DNA from: Pseudomonas extremaustralis
GTDB lineage: Bacteria; Pseudomonadota; Gammaproteobacteria; Pseudomonadales; Pseudomonadaceae
Assembly (NCBI RefSeq): GCF_900102035.1
Contig: NZ_LT629689.1
Coordinates: forward strand, 2,170,001-2,234,000
Direction: 5' to 3'
DNA: 64,000 nt
Position 1 is the stretch's first letter. Every line of letters starts with the position of its first letter. Positions 1,396 through 34,457 of the stretch are shown here, one piece after another. A program made the position numbers and the translations under genes. Under the pieces are notes generated by a model. It searched no databases. It was not told the origin of the DNA and saw only the letters and a list, made by a program, of their open reading frames with translations.

Positions 1396-15425
<14,030 letters not shown>

Positions 15426-15480
15426 TTCTTGGAGTCCGGAGCAGTAGGCGGGAAGCACAAAGGCACGTCGTCCCTATGAA

Positions 15481-18373: not shown

Positions 18374-19333
18374 TTAACCGCCCAACGCCTCCACCACCAG
18401 GCCAGCGCCCCGGACCGTCGCCAGCAGACGCCGGGCATCGGCCTGCAGGACACACTCGGCAATCGCCGGTTCCAACTCGACCCGCAGACGCCGCCCCAAG
18501 GCCCGCGCACCAAACCGCGCATCGTGGTGACGGCACAACCACGCCCGCGCCTGCGCGTCCACCGCCAAAGAGCGCTGCTGCGCCGCCAAACGCTGATTGA
18601 GCTTGCCCAGTTCGACGTCCAGCAACGCCTGCAACCACTGGGCGTCGATGGGTTCGAACATCAGGATGCGGTCGATACGGTTAAGAAACTCCGGCTCGAA
18701 ATGCCCGTGCAAAGCGTCCTCCAGCACTGCCGCTTCGTCCCGCACAAAACCACGCAGCAAGCGTCGCCAGCCGTGGGCAAAGCGCTGGCGATGGCGACGC
18801 GCCTGGTGCGCGCCGATGTTGCTGGTCATGAAGATCAGGCTGTTGCGAAAGTCCAGGGTGCGCGTACCGCCGGCCAGGGTCAGTTGGCCGTTTTCGAGGA
18901 TGCCCAACAGGCTGCGCACCACTTCCTGGCTGGCTTTTTCCAGCTCATCGAACAACACGATCCCCGGCCGGCTGTAAGTGCCTTGGATCAATTCGCTGTC
19001 GAACAGGCTGATGCCCTCCTTGCTGCCCACGTAGCCAGGGGGTGCGCCGGTGAGCGCGGCGGCGTAATGCTCCTGGGCCAGGGTGTGCATGTCGATGCGG
19101 CAGAAAGCGTCGGCGCGACCATGCAGCGCCTGGGCCAGCAGGCGCACGATTTCAGTCTTGCCGACACCGGTGGGGCCCATGAACAGGTTGACGCTCAAGG
19201 GCCGGTCACGCTCGCCGATATCGGCCTTGACCACCTTGAGCAAACCTTCCACCTGGGCCAACGCCGCCACCTGGCCGACGATACGACTGCGCAGCAACGC
19301 CATCACCTGCGCCGGTTCGAAGGTAAAACGCAT
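18374..19333 (-). CDS. amiB: AAA+ ATPase of the ClpA/B second-domain type (AmiB-like)
   Basis: This 319-residue protein consists of only one AAA+ module like the D2 domain of ClpA/ClpB. It has a Walker A motif GPTGVGKT (residues 53-60), Walker B IVLFDE (125-130), a pore-loop-like GYVGSKEG (100-107), a sensor stretch TSN, the arginine-finger region EPEFLNRID, and a small C-terminal ClpB-D2-like lobe (ARFGARALGRRL). It lacks the N-domain and D1 of full Clp proteins. It starts three bases after amiE, as does AmiB in the P. aeruginosa amiEBCRS operon, where it is described as Clp-like. The role there is not settled; amidase assembly or transport energisation have been suggested. The symbol is given by homology of position and domain. 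Confidence 0.75.
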   Translation of the reverse strand: MRFTFEPAQVMALLRSRIVGQVAALAQVEGLLKVVKADIGERDRPLSVNLFMGPTGVGKTEIVRLLAQALHGRADAFCRIDMHTLAQEHYAAALTGAPPGYVGSKEGISLFDSELIQGTYSRPGIVLFDELEKASQEVVRSLLGILENGQLTLAGGTRTLDFRNSLIFMTSNIGAHQARRHRQRFAHGWRRLLRGFVRDEAAVLEDALHGHFEPEFLNRIDRILMFEPIDAQWLQALLDVELGKLNQRLAAQQRSLAVDAQARAWLCRHHDARFGARALGRRLRVELEPAIAECVLQADARRLLATVRGAGLVVEALGG

Positions 19334-19336
19334 GCA

Positions 19337-20380
19337 CTACCCCGCGGTTTTTTCATGGCCGCCATGGGGCAATTGCCCCACCGGGCATTCGGCGACACCC
19401 ACGGTGCTGCGGGTGATTTTTTCCACGTTTTCCTGGGCTTTCTGCGCATCCAGCACCCAGGTGCGGTAGAACTCGAACGGGCAATCGGCCACGCCCTTGT
19501 CGCCGTCGCCCGAGGCGTGCATGCCGGTGTAGCCGCGGTGCAGCAGCTTGAACAGGTGGTTCTGCGACTGGTCGTTGGCCCGCGCATCGCGGATCTGCGA
19601 CACCGACAGTTGGGCGTACTGGATGCCCATTTCCTCTTCACCGCATTCGCCCAGGGTGCGCCCATCGAAGCCGATGATCGCCGAGTGGCCGAAGTAGGAA
19701 TACACCCCATCGAAGCCCGCCGCGTTGGCCACCGCCACGTAGCAGTTATTCGCCCAGGCCATGCTCTTGGACATCAGCACCTGTTGCTCCTTGGCCGGGT
19801 ACATGTAGCCCTGGCAGCGCACGATCAACTCCGCGCCCTTCATCGCACAATCGCGCCAGATTTCCGGGTAGTTGCCGTCGTCGCAGATGATCAGGCTGAT
19901 CTTCATGCCCTTGGGGCCGTCGCACACGTAAGTGCGATCACCGGGATACCAGCCTTCGATGGGGCACCAGGGGATGCACTTGCGATAGCGCTGCACGATC
20001 TCGCCGAGGTTGTTGATCAGCACCAGAGTGTTGTAGGGCGCCTTGTGGGGATGCTCTTCGTGACGTTCGCCGGTCAGGGAAAACACGCCCCAGGTGTTGG
20101 CCTGGCGACACGCGGCGGAAAAGATCGCGGTCTCCTCGCCGGGGATGCTTGCGGCGGTGGCCATCATTTCGTCGTGGTCGTACATGATGCCCATGGTGCT
20201 GTATTCCGGGAACACCACCAGGTCCATGCCGGGCAGGCCCTGTTTCATGCCGACAATGATGTCGGCGATCTTCTTCGCGTTGTCGATGACCTCGGCCTTG
20301 CTGTGCAGGCGCGGCATCTTGTAGTTCACCACCGCGATACCGACGGTGTCCGGGCTGCTGGAAATATCGCCATGACGCAT
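19337..20380 (-). CDS. amiE: Aliphatic amidase (acylamide amidohydrolase)
   Basis: This cytoplasmic enzyme hydrolyses short aliphatic amides such as acetamide and propionamide to the acid and ammonia (EC 3.5.1.4). The 347 residues match the family length. The nitrilase-superfamily catalytic triad is present at the canonical positions: Glu59 ([10 protein letters not shown]), Lys134 ([10 protein letters not shown]) and Cys166 ([11 protein letters not shown]). The N-terminus [20 protein letters not shown] is the standard AmiE start. It lies in the amide operon between fmdB (gap 15 bases) and the AmiB-like ATPase (gap 3 bases). No amiC or amiR sensor/antiterminator genes occur nearby, so regulation differs from the classical P. 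aeruginosa locus. Confidence 0.97.
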
Positions 20381-20395
20381 TGCAACGCTCCTGGT

Positions 20396-20743
20396 CTAGT
20401 GACTGATCATCCACGGACGTGGACCGGTCTTGGTCTTGAGGCCCAGCGGGTTGGCCTTGCTCGGCAGCACCTGTTTGCTGGTGCCGCAGCAACTGCACCC
20501 GGCCGGATGGCGGCGATTTTCCTGGTACTCGCCGACGGTCTGCGGCGCGTGGGCGCTGCGCTCGTTGCCGGCGATAGCCTTGCGCTGGTTGGTCGACAGC
20601 AACTGCAAGGCCGGGGCCGACACCTGCAACGGCCCTCCCGGCCCTGCACAGTACGGGCACTGGCTGGGTTCGTTGCGCTGGGCGATCGGCCGCAACATCG
20701 TGAACGTGCCGCACGCCTCGCAGGCGTATTCGTAGGTCGGCAT
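20396..20743 (-). CDS. fmdB: FmdB-family zinc ribbon protein
   Basis: This small cytoplasmic protein (115 aa) has the FmdB/putative regulatory zinc-ribbon signature: MPTYEYACEACG with Cys8-x2-Cys11 and Cys29-x2-Cys32 (CPYC). A further C-terminal CSCC cluster lies near residue 85. FmdB was first described as a putative regulator of formamidase expression in Methylophilus; its molecular role is not firmly known. The start lies two bases after the fmdA stop, which indicates translational coupling. A longer open frame runs upstream through fmdA, but the ATG at 20743 gives the family's conserved N-terminus. Confidence 0.92.
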   Translation of the reverse strand: MPTYEYACEACGTFTMLRPIAQRNEPSQCPYCAGPGGPLQVSAPALQLLSTNQRKAIAGNERSAHAPQTVGEYQENRRHPAGCSCCGTSKQVLPSKANPLGLKTKTGPRPWMISH

Positions 20744-20745
20744 GG

Positions 20746-21975
20746 CTACAGGTCCGGTGCAATGGGCAGGTCGATGCTGCCGTCGAGGAACTTGGTGGGG
20801 CCGTTGGCGTTGGGGTTGATATCGAACTCGAAGATTTCGGTGGGCAACCACAACGTCGCGCAGGCATTCGGGATATCCACCACGCCGCTGATATGCCCTT
20901 GCACCGGCGCCGAGCCGAGCAGCGCATAGCCCTGGGCCGGCGAGTAGCCGAACTTGGTCAGGTAGTTGATCGCATTCAGGCAGGCCTGGCGGTAGGCGAT
21001 GTTGACGTCCAGGTAGTGCTGCTGGCCCTGCTCGTCCACCGAGATGCCTTCGAAGATCAGGTAGTTCTTGTAGTTCGGCGTGATCGGGCTTGGCTTGAAC
21101 ACCGGGTTCTTGATCCCGTACTTGGCCATGCCGCCCTTGATCAGCTCGACCTTCATGTGCACCCAGCCGGCCATTTCGATGGCGCCGCAAAAGGTGATTT
21201 CGCCGTCACCCTGGCTGAAGTGCAAGTCGCCCACCGACAGCCCGGCGCCCTTGACGTACACCGGGAAAAAGATCTTCGAGCCACGGGACAGATCCTTGAT
21301 GTCGCAGTTGCCGCCATGCTCGCGCGGCGGCACGGTGCGCGCACCGGTGGCGGCGGCATCGTCGCGGGCCTGGCCCTTGAGTTTGCCCATGTGCGCGGTG
21401 GCGGCCAGCGGGGCGTTGGCCAGCGGCGGTACGCGGGTGGGGTTGGTGTCGATCAGTTCCTGCTCGCGGCGGTTCCAGTCGGCGAGCATCACCGGGTCCG
21501 GCAGGCAGCCGATCAGGCCGGGGTGGATCAGGCCGGCGAAGTTCACCCCTGGGATGTGCCGCGAGCTGGTGAACATGCCCTTGAAGTCCCAGATGGCTTT
21601 TTGTGCGCTGGGGAAGTGATCGGTGAGGAAGCCCCCACCGTTCTGCCGCGAGAAAAAGCCGTTGAAGCCCCACTGGGAATCGGCCTTGGCGCCGATATCG
21701 AGCAGGTCCACCACCAGCAGATCGCCCGGCTCGGCCCCGTGCACGCCCACCGGGCCCGACAGGTAATGCACGGTGGACAGGTCCACATCGCGCACGTCGC
21801 TGGCATCGTCGTTGTTCTTGATCGCGCCGGCGGTCCAGTCGTAGGTTTCAAGGATGAAGTCATCGCCCGGCTTGACCCAGCACGCCATCGGAATATCCGG
21901 GTGCCAACGGTTATGGATCTGCTCGTTCTCGGTGACGGGTTGGTTGAGGTCGACTTTGATCAGCGTTTCGGTCAT
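20746..21975 (-). CDS. fmdA: Formamidase (FmdA/AmdA acetamidase-formamidase family)
   Basis: This cytoplasmic enzyme hydrolyses formamide to formate and ammonia (EC 3.5.1.49). The 409 residues match the family. Typical segments are the start MTETLIKVDLNQPV, the Asp/Glu-rich core SGPVGVHGAEPGDLLVVD, HPGLIGCLPDP, REHGGNCDIKDLSRGS and SQGDGEITFCGAIE. The ATG at 21975 is preceded by a good AGGAG ribosome site. The gene leads the fmdAB-amiE-amiB part of the cluster and has its own 229-base upstream gap, which carries a REPIN and a copy of the ATACG-N8-CGTAT element found before urtA. It may therefore have its own promoter while also being read through from urtABCDE. Confidence 0.96.
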   Translation of the reverse strand: MTETLIKVDLNQPVTENEQIHNRWHPDIPMACWVKPGDDFILETYDWTAGAIKNNDDASDVRDVDLSTVHYLSGPVGVHGAEPGDLLVVDLLDIGAKADSQWGFNGFFSRQNGGGFLTDHFPSAQKAIWDFKGMFTSSRHIPGVNFAGLIHPGLIGCLPDPVMLADWNRREQELIDTNPTRVPPLANAPLAATAHMGKLKGQARDDAAATGARTVPPREHGGNCDIKDLSRGSKIFFPVYVKGAGLSVGDLHFSQGDGEITFCGAIEMAGWVHMKVELIKGGMAKYGIKNPVFKPSPITPNYKNYLIFEGISVDEQGQQHYLDVNIAYRQACLNAINYLTKFGYSPAQGYALLGSAPVQGHISGVVDIPNACATLWLPTEIFEFDINPNANGPTKFLDGSIDLPIAPDL

Positions 21976-22042: not shown

Positions 22043-22060
22043 ATACGTTGGATGACGTAT
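22043..22060 (-). promoter_or_regulatory. Candidate operator upstream of fmdA (ATACG-N8-CGTAT)
   Basis: This 18-base inverted repeat has arms ATACG and CGTAT around eight bases and ends 67 bases before the fmdA ATG. The same element occurs twice in tandem upstream of urtA at 27177-27194 and 27199-27216. All copies share TGACGTA on the plus strand. Downstream bases are also similar in both promoters (CCCG, then CCCGCT, then CTGG at 27-30 bases past the element). It is a likely binding site for the neighbouring LuxR-type response regulator, by inference. Confidence 0.5.
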
Positions 22061-22204: not shown

Positions 22205-22894
22205 TTAGACGGACAGGTAGCGGCTGATGGTTGCTTCGTCCACCCGGTCCCGGGTCTCTTCGATGACGAAGCGGCCCTTTTCGATCACCAGGAAACGGTC
22301 GGCGATTTCCAGGGTGAACGACAACACCTGCTCGGACACCACGATGGTCAGGTCCCTTAGGTTGCGAATCTCCTTCAGCGTGCGTGCGATGTCCTTGATG
22401 ATCGACGGCTGGATGCCCTCCGTCGGTTCATCCAGCAGCAGCACCTTGGGGTTGGTCGCCAGCGCCCGGGCAATCGCCAGTTGCTGTTGCTGGCCACCGG
22501 AGAGGTTGCCGCCCTTGCGCGACTGCATGTCGTAGAGCACCGGGAACAGCGCATACAAATCCTCCGGCACCTTGCCCCGCGCCGAGGCCGGCAGGCCGGT
22601 CTGGATGTTTTCCAATACGGTCATGCTCGGGAAAATCATGCGCCCCTGGGGCACATAGGCGATCCCGCGCGCGACCCGCTCATGGGTTTCCAGCGCCGAC
22701 ACATCGTGGCCGTCCACGCTGACTTGGCCCTTCCACTGCGGCAGGATGCCCATCAGGCTCTTGAACAAGGTGGTCTTGCCCATGCCGTTGCGGCCCATCA
22801 CCGCGACGATCTCGCGCTTGGCCACGTTGAGATCCAGGTCGTGGAGGATCTGGCTCTGCCCGTAGCCGCAGGACAATTGGTCGATCTTGAACAT
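22205..22894 (-). CDS. urtE: Urea/short-chain amide ABC transporter, ATP-binding subunit UrtE
   Basis: This 229-residue cytoplasmic ATPase belongs to a branched-chain-amino-acid/urea-type importer (LivF class). Walker A is GRNGMGKTT (about 34-42), the signature is NLSGGQQQQLAIARAL (about 134-149), and Walker B is VLLLDEPTEGIQPS (about 155-168), all complete. The pair UrtD/UrtE powers the permeases UrtB and UrtC. The start lies ten bases after urtD. The importer is linked to formamidase and amidase genes and no urease genes are present, so short amides are at least as likely a substrate as urea; the closest named analogue by context is the fmdDEF system. Confidence 0.93.
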   Translation of the reverse strand: MFKIDQLSCGYGQSQILHDLDLNVAKREIVAVMGRNGMGKTTLFKSLMGILPQWKGQVSVDGHDVSALETHERVARGIAYVPQGRMIFPSMTVLENIQTGLPASARGKVPEDLYALFPVLYDMQSRKGGNLSGGQQQQLAIARALATNPKVLLLDEPTEGIQPSIIKDIARTLKEIRNLRDLTIVVSEQVLSFTLEIADRFLVIEKGRFVIEETRDRVDEATISRYLSV

Positions 22895-22904
22895 GCCTGC
22901 TTCC

Positions 22905-23663
22905 TCAGTGGCCCAAATACACTTCGATGACTTTAGGGTTGCTTTGCACCGACTCCATGCTGCCCTCGGCCAGCACCTTGCCCTGGTGCAGCACCGTGAC
23001 CTTATGGGCGATGCTTTTGACGAATTCCATGTCGTGCTCGATCACCAGTACCGAACGGCCCTGGCTGATGCGGTTGAGCAGCTCGGCGGTTTGCGCGCGT
23101 TCGTTGACGCTCATGCCGGCCACCGGTTCGTCGAGCATCAGCAACTCGGGGTCCTGCATCAACAGCATGCCGATCTCCAGCCACTGCTTTTGCCCGTGGG
23201 ACAGCAGGTCCGCCTGTTGTTGCAGCAAGTCGCCGAGGAAGATCTCCCGCGCGACTTCCTCCACCCGCGCGATCACCTGGGCACTGCGCTTGAAAAACAG
23301 CGCACCCCAAACCTTGCGCCCGGCCGGGTAAGACATCTCGAGGTTCTCGAACACCGTGAGGTTCTCGTAGATCGACGGGTTCTGGAACTTGCGCCCGACC
23401 CCGGCGCGCACGATGTTGTACTCGCGCATCTTGGTCAGTTCCTGGCCGTCGAACTGGATGCTGCCGCTGGTGGCGCGGGTCTTGCCGCAGATCAAGTCGA
23501 GCACCGTGGTCTTGCCCGCACCGTTGGGGCCGATGACCACGCGCACTTCATTGCGGTCGATATACAGGTTGAGGTTGTCGACCGCCTTGAAGCCGTCGAA
23601 GGACACGGTGAGGCCTTCGATGGCCAGCACCGGTTTGTTCATTTCAAAGCCGACGGCGGTCAT
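22905..23663 (-). CDS. urtD: Urea/short-chain amide ABC transporter, ATP-binding subunit UrtD
   Basis: This is the second ATPase of the importer (252 aa, LivG class). Walker A is GPNGAGKTT, and Walker B lies in ELLMLDEPVAGMSVNER. The signature is SHGQKQWLEIGMLL, in which SHGQ replaces the usual SGGQ; this substitution is typical of UrtD proteins. The ATG overlaps the urtC stop by four bases, which indicates translational coupling. An in-frame internal ATG at residue 8 (MNKPVLAIEG) is an alternative start. Confidence 0.93.
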   Translation of the reverse strand: MTAVGFEMNKPVLAIEGLTVSFDGFKAVDNLNLYIDRNEVRVVIGPNGAGKTTVLDLICGKTRATSGSIQFDGQELTKMREYNIVRAGVGRKFQNPSIYENLTVFENLEMSYPAGRKVWGALFFKRSAQVIARVEEVAREIFLGDLLQQQADLLSHGQKQWLEIGMLLMQDPELLMLDEPVAGMSVNERAQTAELLNRISQGRSVLVIEHDMEFVKSIAHKVTVLHQGKVLAEGSMESVQSNPKVIEVYLGH

Positions 23664-24814
23664 GGCTGGGTCTCCAGGATTTTGGTTTTGGCCTTGGCTT
23701 TAACCGGGGCTTTCGCCACGGGCGGTGTGCGCCGCAGCAGTTTCGCCAACGCCTGGCGCCCATGACTGTCCCACAAGCCGGCCAGGCCATTGGGGAAGTA
23801 CATGACCACGGCGATGAACAGCCCGCCCATCAGGTACAGCCACAACTCGGGAAAGGATTCGGAAAAGTAGGTCTTGCCGTAGTTCACCAGCAGCGCGCCA
23901 TACACCGCGCCAAGCAGCGACATGCGCCCGCCCACCGCCGCGAAGATCACCATCTCGATCGACGGCACGATGCCCACGAACGACGGCGACATGAAGCCCA
24001 CCTGCAAGGCGAACATCGCCCCGCCAATCGCCGAGAACGCCGCCGCCACGCAGAACACGAAGATCTTGAAGCTGGCCACGTCATACCCGGAGAAACGCAC
24101 GCGCTCCTCCTTGTCGCGCATGGCCATCAACAGCCGGCCGAGCTTGGAGGCAAGGATGAAACGCCCGATGAAGATGCAGCCGAACAGCAACCCGGCGTTG
24201 ATGAAGTACAGGATCAGCTTCGCGCTGTCGGTGCGCAGCTCCCAGCCGAGCAGGGTCTTGAGGTCGGTGATGCCGTTGACGCCGCCGGTCAGGCCTTGCT
24301 GGCCAACGATCAGCACGGTGAGGATCAGCGCAATCGCCTGGGTCACGATGGAGAAATACACATCGCCCACGCGCCGCTTGAACAGGGCCATGCCGATGAT
24401 GAACGCGAGCAGCACCGGCACCGCGATCACCGCCACCAGGGTGAAACTGAAACTGTGGAACGGTTGCCACAACAGCGGCAGTTCGGTGATCTGGTTCCAG
24501 TCCATAAAGTCCGGGATGCCCGGCGTGGACTGGATCTTGGTGCTTTCAGGGTCGGACGCCTCCAGCTTGAGGAACATCGCCATGCAGTAGCCGCCGACGC
24601 CAAAGAACACGCCCTGCCCCAGGCTGAGAATGCCGCCATAGCCCCAGCACAACACCAGGCCCACGGCGACGAATGCGTAGGTCAGGTACTTGCCGACCAT
24701 GTTCAGCCGGAACGCATCCAACGTCAGGGGGAACACCACGAGAATCAGCAGCGCCAGCAACACGATGCCGATCAGGTTTTGCTGGCCGCCCAGCAGCTTG
24801 TCTAAAGCCTTCAT
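23660..24814 (-). CDS. urtC: Urea/short-chain amide ABC transporter, permease subunit UrtC
   Basis: This inner-membrane permease (384 aa, LivM class) has about ten hydrophobic segments. The family stretches GYGGILSLGQGVFFGVGGYCMAM and LLMAMRDKEERVRFSGYDV (the loop contacting the ATPase) are present, as is GRMSLLGAVYGALLVNYGK. It forms the translocation path with UrtB. The C-terminus is a short lysine/alanine-rich cytoplasmic tail (KAPVKAKAKTK). It lies ten bases after urtB and overlaps urtD by four bases. Confidence 0.94.
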   Translation of the reverse strand: MKALDKLLGGQQNLIGIVLLALLILVVFPLTLDAFRLNMVGKYLTYAFVAVGLVLCWGYGGILSLGQGVFFGVGGYCMAMFLKLEASDPESTKIQSTPGIPDFMDWNQITELPLLWQPFHSFSFTLVAVIAVPVLLAFIIGMALFKRRVGDVYFSIVTQAIALILTVLIVGQQGLTGGVNGITDLKTLLGWELRTDSAKLILYFINAGLLFGCIFIGRFILASKLGRLLMAMRDKEERVRFSGYDVASFKIFVFCVAAAFSAIGGAMFALQVGFMSPSFVGIVPSIEMVIFAAVGGRMSLLGAVYGALLVNYGKTYFSESFPELWLYLMGGLFIAVVMYFPNGLAGLWDSHGRQALAKLLRRTPPVAKAPVKAKAKTKILETQP

Positions 24815-24824: not shown

Positions 24825-25742
24825 CTACTTGCGCACTTTGATGGAGAACAACCCTTGCGGGCGCAGCATCAGGATCAGGATCACCGAGGACAAGGTCAGC
24901 ACCTTGGCCATCGAGCCACTGAGGAAAAACTCCGACAGCGATTGGGTCTGGGCGATCACGAACGCCGAGGCGATGGTGCCGAACAGGCTTTGCGCGCCGC
25001 CGAACACCACGACCAAAAAGGTGTCGACGATGTACTGCGAGCCCGCCGTCGGCCCGGTGGAGCCGATGGTGGTGAACGCCGCGCCCGCCACGCCGGCCAC
25101 GCCGCAGCCGAGGGCGAAGGTCATGCGGTCGACCTTGCGCGTATTGATGCCCACCGCGCGGCTCATCAAGCGGTTCTGCACGGTGGCACGCACCTGCAGG
25201 CCCCAGCGCGAGCGGTAGAGCATCAGGAAGATCGCCGCCGTCAGCAGCACGGTCAGGGCCATCATGAACAGGCCGTTGCGCGGGATCTCGATGGCATCGG
25301 TGAAGTTCACCGAGCCCATCAGCCAGGCTGGCGGTTCGGCGCTGACTTCACGGGCACCGAACACCGAGCGGAAGGTTTGCTGCATCACCAGGGACAGGCC
25401 CCAGGTGGCGAGCAAGGTGTCCAGCGGGCGCTTGTACAAGCGGCTGATCATCGCCCACTCCACCAGCCAGCCGACGGCGCCGGCAACGAGGAATGACAGG
25501 GCGATGGCGAAGAAGAAGTAATAGGGTTGGAAGCTTGGCGCAAAGTGCGCGGTGAGGCTGGAACACACGTAGGTGGTGTAGGCGCCGATGGTCAGGAACT
25601 CACCGTGGGCCATGTTGATCACCCCCATCTGGCCGAAGATGATCGCCAACCCCAATGCCATCAGCAGCAGCACGCAGAACACGGACAAGCCGTTGAACCC
25701 CTGCATTGCCGCGATGGCCCCAAATTCCGATAGCCATTCCAT
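24825..25742 (-). CDS. urtB: Urea/short-chain amide ABC transporter, permease subunit UrtB
   Basis: This inner-membrane permease (305 aa, LivH class) starts MEWLSEFGAIAAMQGFNGLS. The open frame extends further upstream, but that extension encodes the REPIN repeat, and the ATG at 25742 has an AGGAG ribosome site. Family motifs are GQMGVINMAHGEFLTIGAY, GAREVSAEPPAW and VRATVQNRLMSRAVGINT. It dimerises with UrtC. The gene is separated from urtA by 169 bases holding a REPIN, which could tune the ratio of binding protein to permease mRNA. Confidence 0.93.
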   Translation of the reverse strand: MEWLSEFGAIAAMQGFNGLSVFCVLLLMALGLAIIFGQMGVINMAHGEFLTIGAYTTYVCSSLTAHFAPSFQPYYFFFAIALSFLVAGAVGWLVEWAMISRLYKRPLDTLLATWGLSLVMQQTFRSVFGAREVSAEPPAWLMGSVNFTDAIEIPRNGLFMMALTVLLTAAIFLMLYRSRWGLQVRATVQNRLMSRAVGINTRKVDRMTFALGCGVAGVAGAAFTTIGSTGPTAGSQYIVDTFLVVVFGGAQSLFGTIASAFVIAQTQSLSEFFLSGSMAKVLTLSSVILILMLRPQGLFSIKVRK

Positions 25743-25801
25743 GATGATGGTCTCCTGAGAGCGGGAGGTGATAGTTGGAATGCGATGTGCTTTTGCTCTA
25801 T

Positions 25802-25888
25802 GTGGGAGGGGGCTTGCCCCCGATAGCGGTGGCTCAGTTATAGAGATGTCGACTGACACTCCGCCATCGGGGGCAAGCCCCCTCCCAC
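25802..25888. repeat. REPIN between urtA and urtB (87 bp)
   Basis: Two inverted copies of GTGGGAGGGGGCTTGCCCCC flank a spacer that is itself imperfectly inverted (GATAGCGGTGGCTCAG versus CTGACACTCCGCCATC). It follows the urtA stop by 23 bases. REP hairpins in such positions often protect the upstream transcript, so higher urtA than urtB mRNA is expected. Confidence 0.9.
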
Positions 25889-25911: not shown

Positions 25912-27120
25912 TTATTGGTAACCCTTTGGAAACGGATTTGGCTCGATCAGATCCGACTCGTAGATCACCTTGAACTGGCCGTTCGGCTGCACTTCACCGA
26001 TGCGCGACTTGCTCCACAGGTGATGGTTCTCGTGGATCTTCACGTAGCCTTCCGGCGCGGTTTTCAGCTCGATGCCAGGGGATGCGGCGACGACTTTGTC
26101 CACGTCGAAACTGCCGGCCTTCTCCACTGCCGCTTTCCATAGCCATGGGCCGAGGTAGGCGGCCTGGGTCACGTCGCCGATCACCGCATCCTTGCCGTAC
26201 TTGGCCTTGAAGGCTTCGACGAAGGCTTTGTTGTTGGGGTTGTCCAGGCTCTGGAAGTACTTCATCGAGGCATAGAAGCCGGCCATGTTTTCGCCGCCGA
26301 TGCCGAGCAATTCGTCTTCGGTCACCGACAGGGTCAGCAGGGTCTGCTTGGAGGCGTTCACGCCCGCCGCGTTGAGTTGTTTGTAGAACGCCACGTTGGA
26401 GCCACCCACCACGGCGGCGAACACCACGTCAGGCTTTTTCAGCTTGACCTTGTTGATCAGCGAACCGAACTGGGTGTTGCCCAGCGGGTAGTAGTCTTCG
26501 CCCACCACGGTGCCGTGCAGCACGTTCTCGATGTGCTTGCGCGCGATCTTCATCGAGGTGCGCGGCCAGATGTAGTCGGAGCCGACCAGGTAGAAGGTTT
26601 TCGCGCCCTTGGTCTTGGCGATCCAGTCGAGGCTGGCGAGGATTTGCTGGGTCGCTTCCTGGCCGGTGTAGATCACGTTTTTCGACTGTTCCAGGCCTTC
26701 GTAGAAGGTCGGGTAGTAGAGCAGGCCGTTTTCTTTCTCGAAGATCGGCAGCACGGCTTTACGCGACGCCGAGGTCCAGCAGCCGAACACGGCGGCGACC
26801 TTGTCGTTGACCAGCAGTTTCTTGGCCTTTTCGGCGAAGGTCGGCCAGTCGGACGCGCCGTCTTCCTGGATCACCTTGATCTGCCGTCCCAGAATCCCGC
26901 CCGAGGCGTTGATCTGCTCGATAGCCAGGCGTTCGGCCTGGATCGAACCGGTCTCGGAAATGGCCATGGTGCCGGTGGCCGAGTGCAACTGGCCGACGGT
27001 GACTTCGGTCGGGGTGACGGCGAGGCCTTCGTTATCGGCCAGCACGCCCTGGCTGAACAGTGCGGCCGCCAGTAATGACAGGGCCAACAGCGGTTTGGAG
27101 CGGATCAATCGTTGTGCCAT
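25912..27120 (-). CDS. urtA: Urea/short-chain amide ABC transporter, substrate-binding protein UrtA
   Basis: This periplasmic binding protein (402 aa) has a clear signal peptide: MAQRLIRSK, a hydrophobic core LLALSLLAAALFSQG, then cleavage after VLA before DNEGL. The mature part carries the UrtA/AmiC-like type I fold with GQLHSATGTMAISETG, AVFGCWTSASRKAVLP and YYPTFYEGLEQS. I chose the ATG at 27120 (AGGAG nine bases upstream) over an in-frame ATG 33 bases earlier, because the signal peptide begins there. It is the first gene of the urtABCDE-fmdAB-amiE-amiB run. The upstream gap holds two ATACG-N8-CGTA-type sites. It fits the amide-binding role of FmdD/UrtA; the exact ligand is unknown. Confidence 0.95.
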   Translation of the reverse strand: MAQRLIRSKPLLALSLLAAALFSQGVLADNEGLAVTPTEVTVGQLHSATGTMAISETGSIQAERLAIEQINASGGILGRQIKVIQEDGASDWPTFAEKAKKLLVNDKVAAVFGCWTSASRKAVLPIFEKENGLLYYPTFYEGLEQSKNVIYTGQEATQQILASLDWIAKTKGAKTFYLVGSDYIWPRTSMKIARKHIENVLHGTVVGEDYYPLGNTQFGSLINKVKLKKPDVVFAAVVGGSNVAFYKQLNAAGVNASKQTLLTLSVTEDELLGIGGENMAGFYASMKYFQSLDNPNNKAFVEAFKAKYGKDAVIGDVTQAAYLGPWLWKAAVEKAGSFDVDKVVAASPGIELKTAPEGYVKIHENHHLWSKSRIGEVQPNGQFKVIYESDLIEPNPFPKGYQ

Positions 27121-27176
27121 GGGGCGACTCCTCTGCAATGAGGGGTCCAGCATGGCGGCAGCGGGTCAGCGCGGGT

Positions 27177-27219
27177 ATACGCAGCCTGACGTAACGGCAT
27201 ACGTCATTTGACGTATGCC
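27177..27219 (-). promoter_or_regulatory. Tandem operators upstream of urtA (two ATACG-N8-CGTA sites, 22 bp apart)
   Basis: Site 1 (27177-27194) is ATACG-N8-CGTAA; site 2 (27199-27216) is ATACG-N8-CGTAT inside a larger perfect inverted repeat with 11-base arms (27196-27206 and 27209-27219). Their centres are 22 bases apart, two helical turns, so a regulator could bind the same face of the DNA. The sites lie 57 and 79 bases before the urtA ATG. A single matching site precedes fmdA. The nearest candidate regulator is the divergent LuxR-type response regulator. Confidence 0.6.
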
Positions 27220-27272
27220 GCTGCGCACCAATGCAGGGCAGGATCGCGCTCGCCCAGCCGCCACTGACCAAT

Positions 27273-27294
27273 GTGGAAGGGGGCTTGCTCCCAC
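27273..27294. repeat. Single REP element
   Basis: This single short palindrome of the same REP family (GTGGAAGGGGGCTTGC followed by TCCCAC) lies in the divergent gap between urtA and the sensor kinase gene. Confidence 0.8.
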
Positions 27295-27367
27295 ATTCGC
27301 CGCCCAGCGCATTTGAGGGCATGGAACTTGCTCACTCCCTTCGTCCACTCTGCGGAGCCTCCCCACC

Positions 27368-30300
27368 GTGCAATCCCCACCCGGCACCCAGCGCATCGTC
27401 AAGATCCGCCGCGACTACAACTCCTGGGTCGCCGACGAGACCATGGAAGACTACGCCCTGCGCTACACCCCCAAGTCGTTTCGCAAATGGTCGGAGCTGC
27501 GTATCGCCAACACCGCCCTGGGCGCGGTGTCATTCCTGGCGCTGGAGGCCATCGGCGGGGTATTGGCCCTCAGTTACGGCTTCACCAACACCTTCTGGGC
27601 GATCCTCACTATCAGCCTGGTGATCTTCCTCACCGGCCTGCCCATCAGCTATTACGCCGCGCGCTATGGCGTGGACATGGACCTGCTGACTCGCGGCGCC
27701 GGCTTCGGTTATATCGGCTCCACCATCACTTCGCTGATCTACGCCAGCTTCACCTTTCTGTTCTTCGCCCTGGAAGCGGCGATCATGGCCCTGGCGCTGG
27801 AGCTGTATTTCCATATCCCGCTGGCCTTCGCCTATGTGATCTGCTCGCTGCTGGTGATCCCGCTGGTGGCCTATGGCGTGACCCTGATCAGCCGCCTGCA
27901 ACTGTGGACTCAACCGCTGTGGCTGTTCTTGCTGGTATTGCCCTACGGCTTCGTGTGGTGGAAAAACCCCGACGCCTTCAGCGACTGGACCAGTTTTGTC
28001 GGGCGCAGCGGCGATGGCGGTGGCTTCAACCTGCTGGCGTTCTGCGCCGCCTGCACCGTGGCGCTGTCGCTGGTGACGCAGATCGGTGAGCAAGTGGACT
28101 ACCTGCGCTTCCTGCCGGAAAAGACCGCTGCCAATCGCAAGCGCTGGTGGGCCGCCCTGCTCTGCGCCGGCCCCGGCTGGATCATCCCCGGCGCCTTGAA
28201 GATGTTCGCCGGCGCGTTCCTGGCGTTCCTGGCCCTGCAACATGAAATCCCCATGGAGCGCGCCGCCGAGCCGACGCAGATGTACCTGGTCGCCTTCCGC
28301 TATGTGTTCAGTTCGCCGGAATGGGCGCTCGGCGCCATGGTGCTGTTCGTGTTCATCTCGCAGATGAAGATCAACCTGACCAACGCCTACGCCGGCTCCC
28401 TGGCCTGGTCGAACTTCTTCGCCCGCGTCACCCACAGCCACCCTGGGCGCGTGGTGTGGCTGGTGTTCAACGTGGCGATTGCGCTGATGCTGATGGAGCT
28501 GGGGGTGTTCGATGTGATCGACCAGGTGCTGGGCCTCTACGCCAATATCGCCATCGCCTGGATCGGCACGCTGGTGGCGGACCTGGTGATCAACAAGCCC
28601 TTGGGCCTGTCGCCGGCACACATCGAATTCAAGCGCGCGCACCTCTACGACATCAACCCGGTGGGCGTCGGCTCGATGTTGATTGCCTCGTTGCTGTCGA
28701 TCCTCGCCCACTTCGGCCTGTTCGGCGCCCTGGCCCAGGCGGCGCCGCCCTTCGTGGCGCTGGGCACGGCCTTGATCATGGCGCCGCTGCTGGCCTGGCT
28801 GACCAAGGGCAAGTACTACATCGCGCGCACCAGCGACGCCCAGTTGATTCACCCGGTGGCGCCCGCCACCCACGCGGTGTGCGGGCTGTGCAGCAACCCG
28901 TTCGAGACCGCCGACATGGCGTTCTGCCCGGCCTACAGCACGCCGATCTGTTCGCTGTGCTGTTCGCTGGATGCGCGCTGCGGCGACCGTTGCAAACCTC
29001 ACGCCCGCCTGGTCAGCCAGTTCGAAGGTGCGTTGCGCTGGTTGCTGCCCAACACCCTGATGCCACGCCTGCATACGCGCCTGGCCCATTACCTGGGGCT
29101 GCTGTTGGTGTTGGTGCTGCTGCTCGCTGGCGCCCTGGCCTTGATCTACGTACAGGCGGCCCAGGGCTTGCCCCATTCCGAGACGTTGTACCAGGCGTTC
29201 TTCAAAGCCTTCCTGACCCTCTCGGTGCTGGCCGCCGTGCTCGCCTGGTGGGTGGTGCTGACCCGCGAAAGCCGGCGCGTCGCCCAGGAAGAATCCGACC
29301 GCCAGACCCTGCTGTTGATGCAGGAGATCGACGCCCACAGCCTCACCGACCAGGCCCTGCAACAAGCCAAGGAGGCTTCGGAAGCGGCGAATGCCGCCAA
29401 GAGCCGCTACGTCACCGGGCTGTCCCACGAACTGCGCACGCCGCTGAACAGCATCCTCGGTTTCACCCAGATTCTGCAGCGCGACAGCGCCATGCCCGAA
29501 CAGCATCAGGACGCGCTGGCGACCATCCTGCGCAGCGGCTCGCACCTGCTGTCGCTGATCGACGGCCTGCTCGACGTGGCCAAGATCGAGGCCGGCAAGC
29601 TGCGCCTGGAACTCACCGAAATCCCCTTCCCCGAATTGATCCGCGACTTGGAACAGATGTTCACCCCGCAAGCCCAGGACAAGGGCCTGCGCTTTCGCCT
29701 GGACTGCGTGGGCAAGATCCCGGCGGTGGTGCGCGGCGATGAGAAACGCGTGCGCCAGATCCTGATCAACCTGCTGGGCAACGCAGTGAACTTCACCGAC
29801 AGCGGCGAGGTGTGCCTGCGGGTCAGCTACATGCGCGAAACCGCCAACTTCGAAATCATCGACACCGGTATCGGCATTGATCCGGGGCAACTGGAGCGGA
29901 TCTTCCAGCCGTTCGAACGCGGCGACCTGATGCGCCAGGACAAGGGCGTGGGCCTGGGGCTGACCATCACGCGCATGCTCACCTCGCTGATGGGCGGTGA
30001 GTTGCGCGTCACCAGCGAACTGGACAAGGGCACCTGCTTCCAGGTACGGCTGTTCCTGTCACAAGTACGTGCACCCCAGGCGGTGGTGCATGTGGAGCAC
30101 GACATCATCGGCTACCACGGCGAGCGCCGACGCATCCTGGTGGTGGACGACCATGTTGACCACCGCAAGGTGCTCAGCGGCATGCTCACGCCATTGGGTT
30201 TTGAAGTGGTCCAGGCCAGCAATGGCCAGGATGCGATCCGCCAGGTGGCGCTGCTGGCGCCGGACCTGATCCTGATGGACCTGTCGATGCCGACCCTGGA

Positions 30301-30751
30301 CGGTTACGAAACCAGCCGGCTGATCCGCCGCAATGCGCTGTCCACCGCGCCGATCATTGTGATCTCGGCCAACGCCTTCACCGACGACCGCGAACGCAGC
30401 ATCGCCGCAGCCTGCAACGACTACCTGGCCAAGCCGGTGCGCACCCCGGAACTGCTCGGCCGCCTGCAACAGCACCTGGGCCTGCAGTGGCTGCGCCGCA
30501 CCAAGACCTTCGTCGCGCCGCCGCCACCGGGCGTGCTGCCGAGCCCCGAAGACCTCGCCGCGCTCGCCGAACTCAGCGCCATCGGCTATGTGCGCGGGCT
30601 GCACGAAAAACTCGACACGATCCTTGAATACCGACCCGACACCGAACCTTTCATCAGCAAGGTGCGCGGGCTGCTCAAGGGTTTCCGCCTGGATGAACTG
30701 AACCGAACCCTCAAGGAGGCCGAAGATGAATGCACTCACCCACAGCACTGA
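27368..30751 (+). CDS. NCS1-type permease fused to a hybrid sensor histidine kinase
   Basis: This 1,127-residue membrane sensor starts at a GTG. Residues about 10-490 are a complete cytosine/purine-permease-like (NCS1) domain (RDYNSWVADETMEDYALRYT and about 12 membrane segments). A cysteine-rich linker follows (about 503-548; CxxC, CxxCC and several single Cys), then two more membrane helices (about 573-640), HisKA with SHELRTPLNS (His about 686), a HATPase with complete N and G boxes (NLLGNAVNF, DTGIGIDPG, GVGLGL), a receiver domain with Asp in LILMDLSMP (about 971), and a helical tail. The layout recalls CbrA, where a transporter domain feeds a kinase. The divergent amide operon suggests it senses an amide or related compound; this is inference. 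Its stop overlaps the next gene by 26 bases. Confidence 0.9.
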   Translation: MQSPPGTQRIVKIRRDYNSWVADETMEDYALRYTPKSFRKWSELRIANTALGAVSFLALEAIGGVLALSYGFTNTFWAILTISLVIFLTGLPISYYAARYGVDMDLLTRGAGFGYIGSTITSLIYASFTFLFFALEAAIMALALELYFHIPLAFAYVICSLLVIPLVAYGVTLISRLQLWTQPLWLFLLVLPYGFVWWKNPDAFSDWTSFVGRSGDGGGFNLLAFCAACTVALSLVTQIGEQVDYLRFLPEKTAANRKRWWAALLCAGPGWIIPGALKMFAGAFLAFLALQHEIPMERAAEPTQMYLVAFRYVFSSPEWALGAMVLFVFISQMKINLTNAYAGSLAWSNFFARVTHSHPGRVVWLVFNVAIALMLMELGVFDVIDQVLGLYANIAIAWIGTLVADLVINKPLGLSPAHIEFKRAHLYDINPVGVGSMLIASLLSILAHFGLFGALAQAAPPFVALGTALIMAPLLAWLTKGKYYIARTSDAQLIHPVAPATHAVCGLCSNPFETADMAFCPAYSTPICSLCCSLDARCGDRCKPHARLVSQFEGALRWLLPNTLMPRLHTRLAHYLGLLLVLVLLLAGALALIYVQAAQGLPHSETLYQAFFKAFLTLSVLAAVLAWWVVLTRESRRVAQEESDRQTLLLMQEIDAHSLTDQALQQAKEASEAANAAKSRYVTGLSHELRTPLNSILGFTQILQRDSAMPEQHQDALATILRSGSHLLSLIDGLLDVAKIEAGKLRLELTEIPFPELIRDLEQMFTPQAQDKGLRFRLDCVGKIPAVVRGDEKRVRQILINLLGNAVNFTDSGEVCLRVSYMRETANFEIIDTGIGIDPGQLERIFQPFERGDLMRQDKGVGLGLTITRMLTSLMGGELRVTSELDKGTCFQVRLFLSQVRAPQAVVHVEHDIIGYHGERRRILVVDDHVDHRKVLSGMLTPLGFEVVQASNGQDAIRQVALLAPDLILMDLSMPTLDGYETSRLIRRNALSTAPIIVISANAFTDDRERSIAAACNDYLAKPVRTPELLGRLQQHLGLQWLRRTKTFVAPPPPGVLPSPEDLAALAELSAIGYVRGLHEKLDTILEYRPDTEPFISKVRGLLKGFRLDELNRTLKEAEDECTHPQH

Positions 30752-31391
30752 ACCTGGCGTCGTGCTGATCGTCGACGACACCCCGGACAACCTGGCCATG
30801 CTCTCCGACGCCCTCGACGACGCCGGCTACATGGTGCTAGTGGCCCTCGACGGTCTCAGCGCGCTGAACCGCGTGCAGCGCCGGCGCCCGGACCTGATCC
30901 TGCTGGACGCGATGATGCCCGGCCTGGACGGTTTCGAAACCTGTCGCCGGCTCAAGGCGATGCCGGCCAGCGCGGACATCCCGGTGGTGTTCATGACCGG
31001 GCTGACCGACAGCAAGCATGTGGTGCAGGGCTTTGAGGTGGGCGGCAGCGACTATGTGACCAAGCCGATCCAGACCGATGAAGTGCTGGCGCGGGTCGCG
31101 GCCCATCTGCGCACCTCGCGCATTCTGATGTCGGCGCGGGCGGCCATCCAGCCGAGTGCCTTGACGCTGGAGGATGAATCGGCGCACCGGCTGCTGTCGG
31201 CCCGGTTCCAATTGACCGAACGCGAGGTGGAAGTGTTGCGTTGGGTGGCCTGCGGGAAAACCAATCGGGACATCGGCGACATCCTCGGGTTGAGCCCAAG
31301 GACGGTGAACAAGCACCTGGAGCATGTGTATGTGAAGCTGGGCGTCGAAACCCGCACGGCGGCTACGTCAGTCGCCCTGGCCGCGATCTGA
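30726..31391 (+). CDS. LuxR/NarL-family response regulator
   Basis: This 221-residue DNA-binding protein has an N-terminal receiver with the acidic pocket Asp17-Asp18, phospho-acceptor Asp61 (LILLDAMMPGLDGFE), a Thr at the switch position (VFMTGL) and Lys in YVTKPIQ. The C-terminal LuxR helix-turn-helix is LTEREVEVLRWVACGKTN, then IGDILGLSPRTVNKHLEHVY. It has a perfect AAGGAGG ribosome site inside the end of the sensor gene and overlaps it by 26 bases, so the two are translated together as a pair. It probably activates the divergent urt-fmd-ami genes by binding the ATACG-N8-CGTAT elements; this is inferred from position and site symmetry. Confidence 0.92.
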   Translation: MNALTHSTEPGVVLIVDDTPDNLAMLSDALDDAGYMVLVALDGLSALNRVQRRRPDLILLDAMMPGLDGFETCRRLKAMPASADIPVVFMTGLTDSKHVVQGFEVGGSDYVTKPIQTDEVLARVAAHLRTSRILMSARAAIQPSALTLEDESAHRLLSARFQLTEREVEVLRWVACGKTNRDIGDILGLSPRTVNKHLEHVYVKLGVETRTAATSVALAAI

Positions 31392-31427: not shown

Positions 31428-32993
31428 CTAACTGTTGAAACGCGTCACCAAGGTGTTGAGTGCATGGGCGGTCTCTTGCAACTCGTCTCCCACATTCGAG
31501 GAGTGCTGCGCGATATCGGCGTTCTGATCGGAGACCTGGGCGATCCGGGTGATCTGTTGGGAGATCTCTTCCGCCACGCTGGCTTGTTCTTCCGACGCGG
31601 TCGCCATTTGTTGCGCCATTTGATGAATGCGCTCCACCGCGCCATTGATCCCGTCCAAGGCGTCTTGGGTGCTGATCACCTGAGCCACCCCGGACAGCGC
31701 TTCCACGCTGCCCTGTTTGGCGACGTCCACCGCCTGGTTCGCCACTTCCTGCAGCGTCAGGATGATCCGCTGAATGCTCATGGTCGACTCTTGCGTCTTG
31801 GACGCCAGGGCACGCACCTCGTCGGCAACCACGGCAAAACCGCGCCCCTGCTCGCCGGCACGGGCGGCTTCGATGGCGGCGTTCAAGGCCAGCAGGTTGG
31901 TCTGGTCGGCGATGGACCGGATGATGTTCGCCGCCTGTTGGATCGACTGGGTTTCCTCGGCCAACCCCACCACCGAACGACTGATGGCCTCGACGGTATC
32001 AGCGAGTTTTTCGATCACCTGGCGGGTTTTCTGGGCTTCCTGGGAGCCGGTATGGGTCAAGGTGTTGACCTCGTCAGCGGCGGTGGCGGTATCACTGATG
32101 TGCACCGCCACTTCGGAAATGGACGCCGCCATCTGATTCATCGCCGTGGCGGCCATATCGGCTTCGTCGCGCTGCTGGCCGAGCGCCAACTCCGATTGCT
32201 TGGAGAGAGACTGACTCTGGCTGGCCAACGTCGCGGCCTGATGGGCGTAGTCACCCAGGCGGCTCAGGGCGGTCCTGATCTTCGCGTTTTCACTGATCAG
32301 CACCATTTGCAACTGAGCGGCCTGCCCGGTCTCGTCGGAATAGGTGCGGGCGATCAATTCGCTGTCGAAACACCCTTGCGCCACCGCGACGACACGCTTG
32401 AGCGTATTGCGCGACTGGACAACGCCAATCCCTTGCAGCGCAAAGAGCCCGGCCACGGCGACCAGCGCACTTATGCCGGGCCCCGCCCACTGGAACGCGG
32501 CGACGCAGGCGATTGCAATCGCGCCCGGCGCGAACAAAAAGCGTGCCGCCGACATCAGGCGGCGCTTGAACGTCCCGGTGGCGTTTTCTCCGCGCATCCC
32601 CGCGTAAAGCGCCGACGCCCGCTCGACTTGCCGCCGATCTGGCTTGACCCGCACCGACTCGTAGCCGGTGAGCTGTCCCTGCACGAAAATGGGCGTGACA
32701 TAGGCATCGACCCAGTAGAAATCGCCGTTGCTGCATCGATTCTTCACGATGCCCATCCAACTTTTACCGTCCTTGAGATAGGACCACATATGCGCAAATA
32801 CCGCTTCGGGCATATCGGGATGACGGACGATATTATGCGGCTGCCCAATCAACTGTTCACGACTGAAACCGCTGATCGCCACAAACTCATCATTGCAATA
32901 AGTGATATTGCCCTGCCTGTCGGTGGCGGAAATCAAACGCTGACTGTCGGAAAACACCAGTTCCTTTTGCGAGACCGGAAGATTATTTCTCAC
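31428..32993 (-). CDS. aer: Aer-type aerotaxis receptor (PAS-containing methyl-accepting chemotaxis protein)
   Basis: This 521-residue inner-membrane chemoreceptor senses redox state through FAD bound by its N-terminal PAS domain. PAS residues at the positions important in E. coli Aer are present: Asn34 (YCNDEF), Arg57-His58-Pro-Asp60, Trp70, Trp79 and Asn85. A hydrophobic hairpin (about 150-192) anchors it without a periplasmic domain. A HAMP-like linker and a long signalling coiled coil follow, with the conserved hairpin tip [20 protein letters not shown] and DEVRALA. No C-terminal CheR-binding pentapeptide is seen. It is monocistronic, its stop faces the response regulator gene across 36 bases, and it likely uses promoters in the AT-rich gap upstream. 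Confidence 0.9.
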
Positions 32994-33353: not shown

Positions 33354-34457
33354 TCAGGCCGCCGGGTCTGCGCGAAGATTATCGCGAGCCCGCGCGGCAC
33401 GATGAGCGGCATCTTCTTCGATAAGTCGCTCTATCGCGGCAAAACAACGGCTCATGATGGTGACCAGCGTCGGATCGAAATGCCGGCCCGACTGCTCCAG
33501 GATATAAGCCTGCGCACGCTCGGGGCTCCAGGCACTTTTGTAAGGGCGATCCATGCGCAATGCATCATAGACATCGCACAACGCGACGATCCGCGCAGAG
33601 AGTGGAATCGCCTCGCCCGACAAGCCTCTGGGATAGCCGCCGCCCTCCCACTTTTCATGATGGTTATAAGCAATTTCCGCCGCCATATCGGTGAGGTCGG
33701 TGGAGTGTTCGTCCTTCAGGATGGCGTGCCCTATGCTCGGGTGCTCCATCATTTGTTGGCGCTCCTCGGGCGTTAATGTGCCTTCTTTGAGCAGAATGCG
33801 ATCAGGAATGCCGATTTTTCCCAAGTCATGCATGGGGGCCGCCATGAGAATCAGGTCACACCATTGCTGGGGCATACCGATCGCCTCCGCCATCAGGCAG
33901 GCGGTCTTGCCGATACGCAGCACATGGTCGCCGGTTTCGTCATCGCGATAGCAGGCGGCGCGACTCAGGGCCCTGATCATGGCGCAAAAACTGTCTTGCA
34001 ACTGAAGGGTGCGCTCAAGCACCCGTTGTTCAAGCTCTTTGTTCAGGTCCTGCAGTTGCCCGGTCGCATGGGACAGGCGCAGGGCATTGCGCATCCTGAG
34101 GATCAGCTCGGGCAAATCCAGGGGTTTGGTCAGGTAGTCATTGGCGCCCAGTTCCAGGCCCAGGCGACGACTCTGCGGCTCGCTCAATGCCGTCAGGATG
34201 ATCACCGGCGAGCGCGAGCGATCGCGTCCGCTGAGCTGGCGCAAAATCTCAAAACCATCGGGTGCAGGCATATCCAGATCCAACAGCAGCAAATCCCATG
34301 GCTGTTCTTTCAGCCAGGCCAGGCCGGTGGCTGAGTCGGCAAAACTCTTGACCTCGCGCAACCCGAAGGCTTTCAGGCTTGACTCGAGCAAGCGCAGATT
34401 GGCGGCGACATCGTCGATGATCACAATCCTGACATCAGCGGGAATATCTCTAAACAT
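33354..34457 (-). CDS. Response regulator with HD-GYP phosphodiesterase output
   Basis: This 367-residue cytoplasmic protein has a receiver domain with Asp60 (LLLLDLDMPAPDGFE) and Lys in YLTKPLD, then a short coiled coil (about 135-155), then an HD-GYP domain with His210-Asp211 (MHDLGKIGIPD) and HHEKWEGGGYP (266-276), where GGGYP stands for the GYP motif. Such RpfG-like proteins hydrolyse cyclic di-GMP when phosphorylated and so favour motility over biofilm. The ATG overlaps the stop of the sensor kinase gene by eight bases, so the pair is coupled. All catalytic metal ligands I could check are present, so it should be active. Confidence 0.92.
   Translation of the reverse strand: MFRDIPADVRIVIIDDVAANLRLLESSLKAFGLREVKSFADSATGLAWLKEQPWDLLLLDLDMPAPDGFEILRQLSGRDRSRSPVIILTALSEPQSRRLGLELGANDYLTKPLDLPELILRMRNALRLSHATGQLQDLNKELEQRVLERTLQLQDSFCAMIRALSRAACYRDDETGDHVLRIGKTACLMAEAIGMPQQWCDLILMAAPMHDLGKIGIPDRILLKEGTLTPEERQQMMEHPSIGHAILKDEHSTDLTDMAAEIAYNHHEKWEGGGYPRGLSGEAIPLSARIVALCDVYDALRMDRPYKSAWSPERAQAYILEQSGRHFDPTLVTIMSRCFAAIERLIEEDAAHRAARARDNLRADPAA

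Follow-up and report, generated by a model that had tools for sequence, protein, structure and literature searches.

We analysed a 64,000-nucleotide stretch of the Pseudomonas extremaustralis genome, a single contig of 6.67 Mb (NCBI RefSeq assembly GCF_900102035.1, contig NZ_LT629689.1, positions 2,170,001 to 2,234,000; hereafter, the window). In it, genes for a hybrid sensor histidine kinase with a carrier-like membrane head and for a LuxR-type response regulator lie back to back with an operon for the uptake and hydrolysis of short amides. The closest named loci belong to Pseudomonas and share 94-98% identity across the sensor head. This arrangement of carrier-kinase fusion, regulator and amide operon had been described in a sequence-only reading of the window, and was confirmed by open reading frame (ORF) and family searches. 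The sensor/regulator pair and the urtABCDE-fmdA-fmdB-amiE-AAA genes diverge from one shared gap, with the following features (window coordinates):

27368..30751, + strand: NCS1-headed hybrid sensor histidine kinase, 1127 amino acids, GTG start (ORF, domains, homologues)
27446..28807, + strand: NCS1-type permease head, residues 27-480 (hhalign against NCS1 proteins of the same genome; AF2 model; CodB/Mhp1 matches)
28880..28993, + strand: Cys-rich linker, residues 505-542 (alignment; without a Pfam match)
29396..30058, + strand: HisKA and HATPase_c kinase core (Pfam)
30134..30466, + strand: receiver domain within the hybrid kinase (Pfam)
30726..31391, + strand: REC-GerE (LuxR/NarL-type) response regulator, its start overlapping the kinase stop (Pfam; helix-turn-helix comparison with relatives)
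25912..27120, - strand: urtA, binding protein of a urea/amide ABC transporter (NCBIfam TIGR03407, over cut-off)
24825..25859, - strand: urtB (TIGR03409, over cut-off)
23660..24814, - strand: urtC (TIGR03408, over cut-off)
22905..23663, - strand: urtD (TIGR03411, over cut-off)
22205..22894, - strand: urtE (TIGR03410, over cut-off)
20746..21975, - strand: fmdA, formamidase, start most likely at 21975 (NF045496, over cut-off)
20396..20740, - strand: fmdB-type zinc-ribbon protein (NF053663 and TIGR02605, over cut-off)
19337..20380, - strand: amiE, aliphatic amidase (NF009802, over cut-off)
18374..19333, - strand: ClpB-like AAA protein, previously called amiB (ClpB/ClpA C-terminal match below cut-off)

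The kinase has the make-up of a hybrid two-component system, with HisKA, HATPase_c and receiver domains in one protein and the partner regulator encoded by the next ORF. The most likely urtA start, at 27120, is preceded by AGGAG. The classical amidase control genes amiC and amiR had been noted as missing, and a genome search for an AmiR-type regulator agreed: the single ANTAR match in the host genome lies at 97 kb, far from the operon. In the available part of a report on Pseudomonas veronii Yu15, the same amiE-fmdB-fmdA-urtABCDE operon is described with amiC and amiR missing, in a strain that can obtain all its nitrogen from formamide or acetamide (PMC13209695).

The head was assigned to the NCS1 carriers by profile and by fold. 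It aligned with an NCS1 profile over 354 columns (hhalign probability 98.3, E 1.1e-14), and its predicted AF2 model and structure matches have the LeuT-type carrier fold of CodB and Mhp1; matches to Nramp, SLC7 and SLC5 structures reflect this shared fold. The curated cut-off of PF02133 was not reached, with no hit for the head at E≤10 and none at E≤1 for a kinase-less sister permease, and two far relatives (L183 and L184) scored 36.9 and 36.1 bits against 23.5 in the same test. We therefore describe the head as a divergent NCS1-related branch and not as a member of the Pfam family. The Pfam hits of the kinase included no SLC5/SSF family, the carrier type of the CbrA head, and no STAC family, whose place is taken by the Cys-rich linker (a segment not searched by structure alone). 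Eight linker Cys residues are invariant in a 33-row alignment. The linker is borne by 1293 proteins, the best 120 of which have kinase Pfam domains, and most sister permeases end in a shorter Cys tail.

The sensor and the formamidase FmdA occur together across genomes. In a phylum-wide draw, 41 of 299 genomes matched the head, leaving 38 with a sensor once G175 (28% identity), G194 (27%) and G236 (a 55-residue fragment) were dropped; FmdA was found in 31 of the 299, and 30 of these 31 also have the sensor. Within the genus, matches in 25 of 119 genomes became 23 after removal of G348 and G370 (shorter proteins near 30% identity), and set comparison showed that the same 23 genomes carry FmdA. 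Co-occurrence of NCS1-kinase fusions with amide genes across genomes, the check put forward in the sequence-only reading, was borne out for fmdA by the identical sets. Homologues never linked to amide genes, named there as grounds for refutation, are the opposite of what we observed, since in 39 of 40 phylum-wide loci the sensor lies near amide-type (formamidase and/or urt) or urea-type (urease and/or urea-transporter) genes, and the fortieth ends at a contig edge.

We examined stretches around the sensor gene, comprising the best 80 by identity of at least 585 named loci (mostly Pseudomonas) and 40 phylum-wide loci of 11-20 kb, one of which is a repeat (L120 of L088); genes beyond the stretch ends fall outside the counts. 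The best-80 set contains 60 loci with FmdA and Urt, 17 with amide-type Urt and no FmdA within the stretch, one with urease, and two with neither, both cut close by contig ends. FmdA is present in 29 of the phylum-wide loci, ten have urease and/or urea-type Urt genes instead, and one lies at a contig edge; an amidase, formamidase or urease gene was found in 38 of the 40. The urea-type UrtA and UrtB are distinct proteins, with 37-45% identity to the amide type, and the urease subunits and UreG of one such locus (L124) were confirmed by NCBIfam. With ten of the 11 FmdA-less phylum-wide sensors at urease or urea-transporter genes, the loci without formamidase in this set are urea loci. On the head tree, the urea-linked sensors need five label changes, of which well-supported branches force three or more, and three genomes (G158, G225 and G246) each carry one amide-linked and one urea-linked sensor. 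At sensor position 301, Glu is found in 37 of 41 amide-linked sensors and Asp in all ten members of four urea clades; Glu also occurs there in the urea-linked L091 and in 14 of 15 sister permeases. As a possible marker of amide or urea specificity, picked from about 500 scanned columns, this position is only a lead. In two urea loci (L152 and L153), a PAP2-phosphatase gene separates the sensor gene from the urea-type urt operon (L152:7914-9815), and its L152 product has a PATR-repeat match.

The divergent gap and the region before fmdA contain related dyads (no strand assigned):

27195..27220: operator-like perfect palindrome CGGCATACGTCA-TT-TGACGTATGCCG (full sequence CGGCATACGTCATTTGACGTATGCCG), in the divergent gap and conserved in relatives
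27178..27193: weaker companion dyad, 11/14, at a spacing of exactly 22 bp from the palindrome (sequence scan)
22044..22059: operator-like copy, 12/14, about 70 nt before the fmdA start (own-genome scan)

The palindrome core is TACGTCA-NN-TGACGTA. In the 119 sensor loci, whose site counts take in related sequences, 153 sites matching at least 12 of 14 positions were found in the urtA, fmdA and kinase promoter regions (100,549 bases), compared with one outside them (2,302,790 bases); a reversed-pattern control gave none inside and one outside. The relaxed consensus TACGY-N6-RCGTA occurred 234 times inside and once outside, and 107 of the 119 loci have a promoter site. Among 60 fmdA loci of Pseudomonas and close kin, two of which look like repeats (L202 of L097, and L203 of L075), 59 have a site of at least 11/14 within 400 nt upstream of fmdA, and this site is kept where fmdA is kilobases distant (L045 and L197) or on another contig (L195). 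Beyond these taxa, fmdA mostly follows urtE and is without a site of its own. The site also travels with a urtA gene displaced from the kinase (L110) and precedes urea-type urtA genes in four loci (L152, L153, L155 and L158). A long, nearly perfect inverted repeat (a REP-like hairpin, by eye) occupies window positions 22081-22167 between urtE and fmdA, directly upstream of the fmdA site, so that fmdA probably has its own promoter.

Across the genus, the exact core occurs once each in 20 of 119 genomes, namely 19 of the 23 sensor genomes and G342, a genome without the sensor in which it falls inside a large ORF and was taken as chance. The host genome has one exact core and five sites with two mismatches, including that at 22044-22059, compared with 11 in the reversed control; with two-mismatch sites fewer than in the control and one exact site, a genome-wide regulon is unsupported. 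A role as a mere terminator was rejected, as copies of the core also stand upstream of fmdA and of urtA genes that have been displaced. We also dropped a candidate sigma-54 promoter before urtA, where a GG-N10-GC stretch (by eye) overlaps the ribosome-binding site.

Copies of the system are also found on plasmids. The head is encoded in 523 of 72,556 records of a plasmid collection, 342 of them from Klebsiella. In a Klebsiella plasmid stretch (L237), the sensor and regulator genes are divergent from urtABCDE with a 13/14 site in the gap, and a 335-amino-acid nitrilase-type formamidase, unrelated to FmdA, follows urtABCDE in the place of FmdA. A Burkholderia vietnamiensis plasmid carries the FmdA version of the locus, also with a 13/14 site.

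We consider it likely that the sensor detects urea-like short-chain amides (formamide, acetamide and urea) and switches on the genes for their uptake and hydrolysis, an interpretation drawn from sequence comparison. The NCS1 head would bind urea or a short amide from the periplasmic side, and the resulting movement would pass through the Cys-rich linker to activate the kinase. Phosphate would then reach the LuxR-type regulator, which would bind the palindrome, at the TACGTCA-NN-TGACGTA dyads that stand in tandem ahead of urtA and at the related site upstream of fmdA. There it would presumably activate, rather than repress, the urt and fmd promoters, leading to amide uptake and hydrolysis. The sequence-only reading had proposed an alternative control circuit for short-amide nitrogen. 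Linkage, co-occurrence and the conserved palindrome all point to such a circuit; its restriction to amides did not hold, because the same sensor family is also found at urease operons.

The kinase could instead answer a general cue, such as ammonium, nitrogen status, or a proton or sodium gradient, with the amide linkage reflecting operon packaging only. The variation of target genes between loci fits this idea, as does the indirect nature of the ligand assignment. We nevertheless find it improbable. The linkage survives changes from one operon type (amide or urease) to the other, at least three of which are forced, as well as the replacement of the enzyme family. Moreover, hardly any sites occur in the loci outside these promoters, and the host genome has a single exact copy.

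Relatives of the head without a kinase provide a further line of evidence. On an Acinetobacter lwoffii plasmid, a 535-amino-acid protein that is 45% identical to the head and has no kinase starts a urease operon. With this permease as query (E≤1e-150), we matched 17 records of the plasmid collection, among them four of chromosome size (one from Klebsiella, 5.4 Mb, and three from A. baumannii, 3.7-4.1 Mb), and fetched 15. Urease, formamidase or amidase genes lie near nine of the 15 sister permeases: six are within or next to urease operons (four near-identical Acinetobacter and two Klebsiella), two are close to fmdA (divergent in Moraxella, two genes away in Tsukamurella), and one precedes an aliphatic amidase gene (Arthrobacter). 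In two A. baumannii records, the permease gene is divergent from the genes of a regulator and of a complete sensor that shows 48% identity along its whole length, with an 11/14 site in the gap. In a more distant group (L183, L184 and L185), the permease gene directly precedes a carbon-nitrogen hydrolase gene in all three cases, likely forming another amide-type carrier/enzyme pair; the Glu of transmembrane helix 3 (TM3) was checked in L183 and L184. The neighbours of the sister permeases therefore tie the permease branch itself to amide and urea breakdown, and the sensor head would descend from, and be sister to, NCS1 carriers serving urease, formamidase and amidase operons. The Acinetobacter permease was placed outside the sensors in the tree, a position that may reflect long-branch attraction. 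In a search across the order (293 genomes) with the same query, all frames were of kinase length except one of 599 residues (G426), which lies 226 bases from a contig start; kinase-less sisters are thus rare in that draw. The 'cytosine permease' encoded directly after ureG in Klebsiella pneumoniae (L271:6956-8563 and L284:7956-9563) belongs among the sisters of the sensor head and is a candidate urea carrier.

These permeases also bear on what the head recognizes. Going by PDB titles, the ligands of structurally characterized NCS1 carriers include cytosine and hydantoins, and database names for some of the sister permeases read allantoin or cytosine permease, so that the head could sense a nucleobase, hydantoin or allantoin, with the amide and urea genes induced as downstream nitrogen scavenging. 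However, the annotated stretches around the sister permeases list no purine, pyrimidine or allantoin catabolic gene, whereas most have urease, formamidase or amidase genes. Such enzyme genes also occur in nearly all phylum-wide sensor loci (38/40). In addition, the stacking Trp of NCS1 carriers falls on, or up to two columns from, the invariant Gln238 and has been lost. We therefore regard nucleobase-type ligands as unlikely, and urea or a short amide as the probable one.

In total, 65 columns are identical across 57 sensors and ten non-redundant sister permeases. The invariant residues include Glu136, Gln238, Glu241, Gln242, Asp244, Lys334, Asn336 and Asn339. Glu136 stands in place of the NCS1 TM3 Gln (Gln in four of eight ordinary NCS1 proteins), the TM6 Trp is lost and its column matches that of Gln238 to within two positions, and Lys334 replaces the TM8 Ser/Thr; for TM6 and TM8, the alignment could be off by one or two residues. 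In Mhp1, these three NCS1 residues belong to the substrate and sodium sites. Position 60 separates the two groups, being Glu in all 57 sensors and Phe in all ten sister permeases and both far relatives. In the AF2 model, the first carrier helix is broken (helices 43-55 and 58-100), with Phe56 at the break and Glu60 just after it. By this comparison and the model, Glu60 may help to convert a carrier into a receptor.

The sequence-only reading had raised the possibility of a transceptor that imports and senses its inducer. Because Glu60 is present in sensors and absent from their sisters, the head may instead be a carrier-derived receptor that has lost transport. As a variant of the amide-sensor explanation, the head would be a locked, non-transporting carrier that reports outside urea or amide in the manner of UhpC. 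We see about an even chance of this. The Phe at position 60 in sisters and far relatives agrees with it, as do the separate ABC transporter near the sensor in most loci and the pairing, in A. baumannii, of the sensor gene with a divergent gene for a standalone permease of the head family. On the other hand, the other carrier pocket residues are kept in the sensors, and the SLC5 head of CbrA is described, in the accessible part of a preprint, as mediating histidine uptake (PMC13022988). A broader scenario can be proposed with similarly balanced confidence, in which the branch named 'cytosine' or 'allantoin' permease consists of urea/short-amide carriers, from Klebsiella and Acinetobacter to Actinomycetota. 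In one lineage, fusion with a hybrid kinase would have gone along with a change from carrier to receptor. The decisive step would have been the gain of Glu60, next to the unwound TM1 substrate site, in a position to pair with the invariant Lys334 of TM8, which replaces the sodium-site Ser/Thr. The product would then have become a widespread urea/amide sensor of Pseudomonadota, swapping between amide and urease operons.

Several observations weigh against detection of urea-like amides by the sensor. Twelve of the 119 loci have no relaxed-consensus site in the scanned promoter regions; in two of these (L133 and L144) the strict site still matches at 13 and 12 of 14 positions, the gap lies outside the stretch in L077, and the urtA start is not in the L154 and L156 stretches. 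No site was found in the scanned promoter regions of L145, L148, L151 and L157, nor in those of three loci where the sensor gene is divergent from ureA (L091, L124 and L150). The regulator recognition helix changes from PRTVNKH to PATVKKH in L124 and L150 and is unchanged in L091. The sensors of L151 and L157 are short forms that lack the receiver and adjoin a different regulator. In L151 the sensor is followed by a REC-kinase, the OmpR-type regulator, fmdA, an AmiS/UreI carrier and a zinc-ribbon protein; clustering gave the same gene order for L157. A single genome (G114) has FmdA without the sensor, and eight of the 38 sensor genomes lack FmdA; all seven of these that were fetched (not G224, a fragment) have urease and/or urea-type urt genes. 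Four of the 15 sister permeases (two Streptomyces and two Arthrobacter) lie near no probe gene. Finally, p-values for co-occurrence overstate the evidence, since genes of one locus are inherited together and the genomes are related.

Downstream of the regulator, window positions 31428-32993 hold a PAS-MCP chemoreceptor gene, and in P. fluorescens P5A (L045) an MCP gene separates urtE from fmdA at about 6.8-8.5 kb from the kinase; chemoreceptor genes near the amide operon raise the possibility of amide taxis. Beyond the window's chemoreceptor gene, a REC-HD gene and a long hybrid-kinase-like ORF (33354-37311) have the appearance of a separate signalling unit. On the far side of the operon, two very long ORFs (1396-15458) resemble non-ribosomal peptide synthetases by eye.

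Urea and small amides matter as sources of nitrogen. The available part of the P. veronii Yu15 main text contains neither 'histidine kinase' nor 'two-component' (PMC13209695), and the same terms are missing from the accessible part of a formamidase review that describes regulation by substrate, nitrogen, iron or carbon source (PMC10781810). Among the matches listed in a search of open-licence literature and few subscription journals, which was aimed at the sensor and operon and not at the sister permeases, there was no publication on an NCS1-headed sensor. Natural experiments on the proposed change from carrier to receptor are already at hand, in the form of fused sensors, kinase-less sisters, amide and urea paralogues in the same genome, and residues that differ between sensor and carrier. 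The findings would also give a likely function to urease-adjacent 'cytosine' and 'allantoin' permeases, including that of the Klebsiella pneumoniae urease operon.

Control of an aliphatic amidase gene, as proposed here, is also the function of AmiC-AmiR in the P. aeruginosa amidase operon. There, however, the amide receptor is soluble and works with an antiterminator that binds RNA, and the operon in the window has no ANTAR gene nearby. In the Uhp system, UhpC is a carrier homologue that acts as a separate MFS-type receptor for glucose-6-phosphate and signals through the kinase UhpB and the LuxR-type regulator UhpA. The proposed system would share this use of a carrier-homologue receptor, a kinase and a LuxR-type regulator. 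Control of a carrier related to the receptor, as in the relation of UhpC to UhpT, may be a further likeness, suggested here by gene order and an 11/14 site in the two A. baumannii records only. In contrast to the separate UhpC, the NCS1 head forms part of a hybrid kinase, and its neighbour in the window is an unrelated ABC transporter. The head resembles CodB and Mhp1 in fold and family, and differs from them at the TM3, TM6 and TM8 positions, occupied by Glu136, approximately Gln238, and Lys334. The closest parallel in design is CbrA, in which an SLC5 carrier forms the head of a histidine kinase according to the accessible part of a structure preprint (PMC13022988), with CrbS and RpuS, as far as the accessible text goes, as further SLC5-headed kinases. 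In these SLC5-STAC kinases, as in the P. extremaustralis protein, a membrane carrier is the sensory head of a histidine kinase for nutrient use. Here, the head is instead of the NCS1 (CodB/Mhp1) type, the linker has eight Cys residues, the output passes to a LuxR-type regulator with a local palindrome, and the input is probably urea or an amide. The carrier-headed kinases that we met in the available sources (CbrA, CrbS and RpuS) are all of the SLC5 type, and the NCS1-headed family would add a second type of carrier to them.

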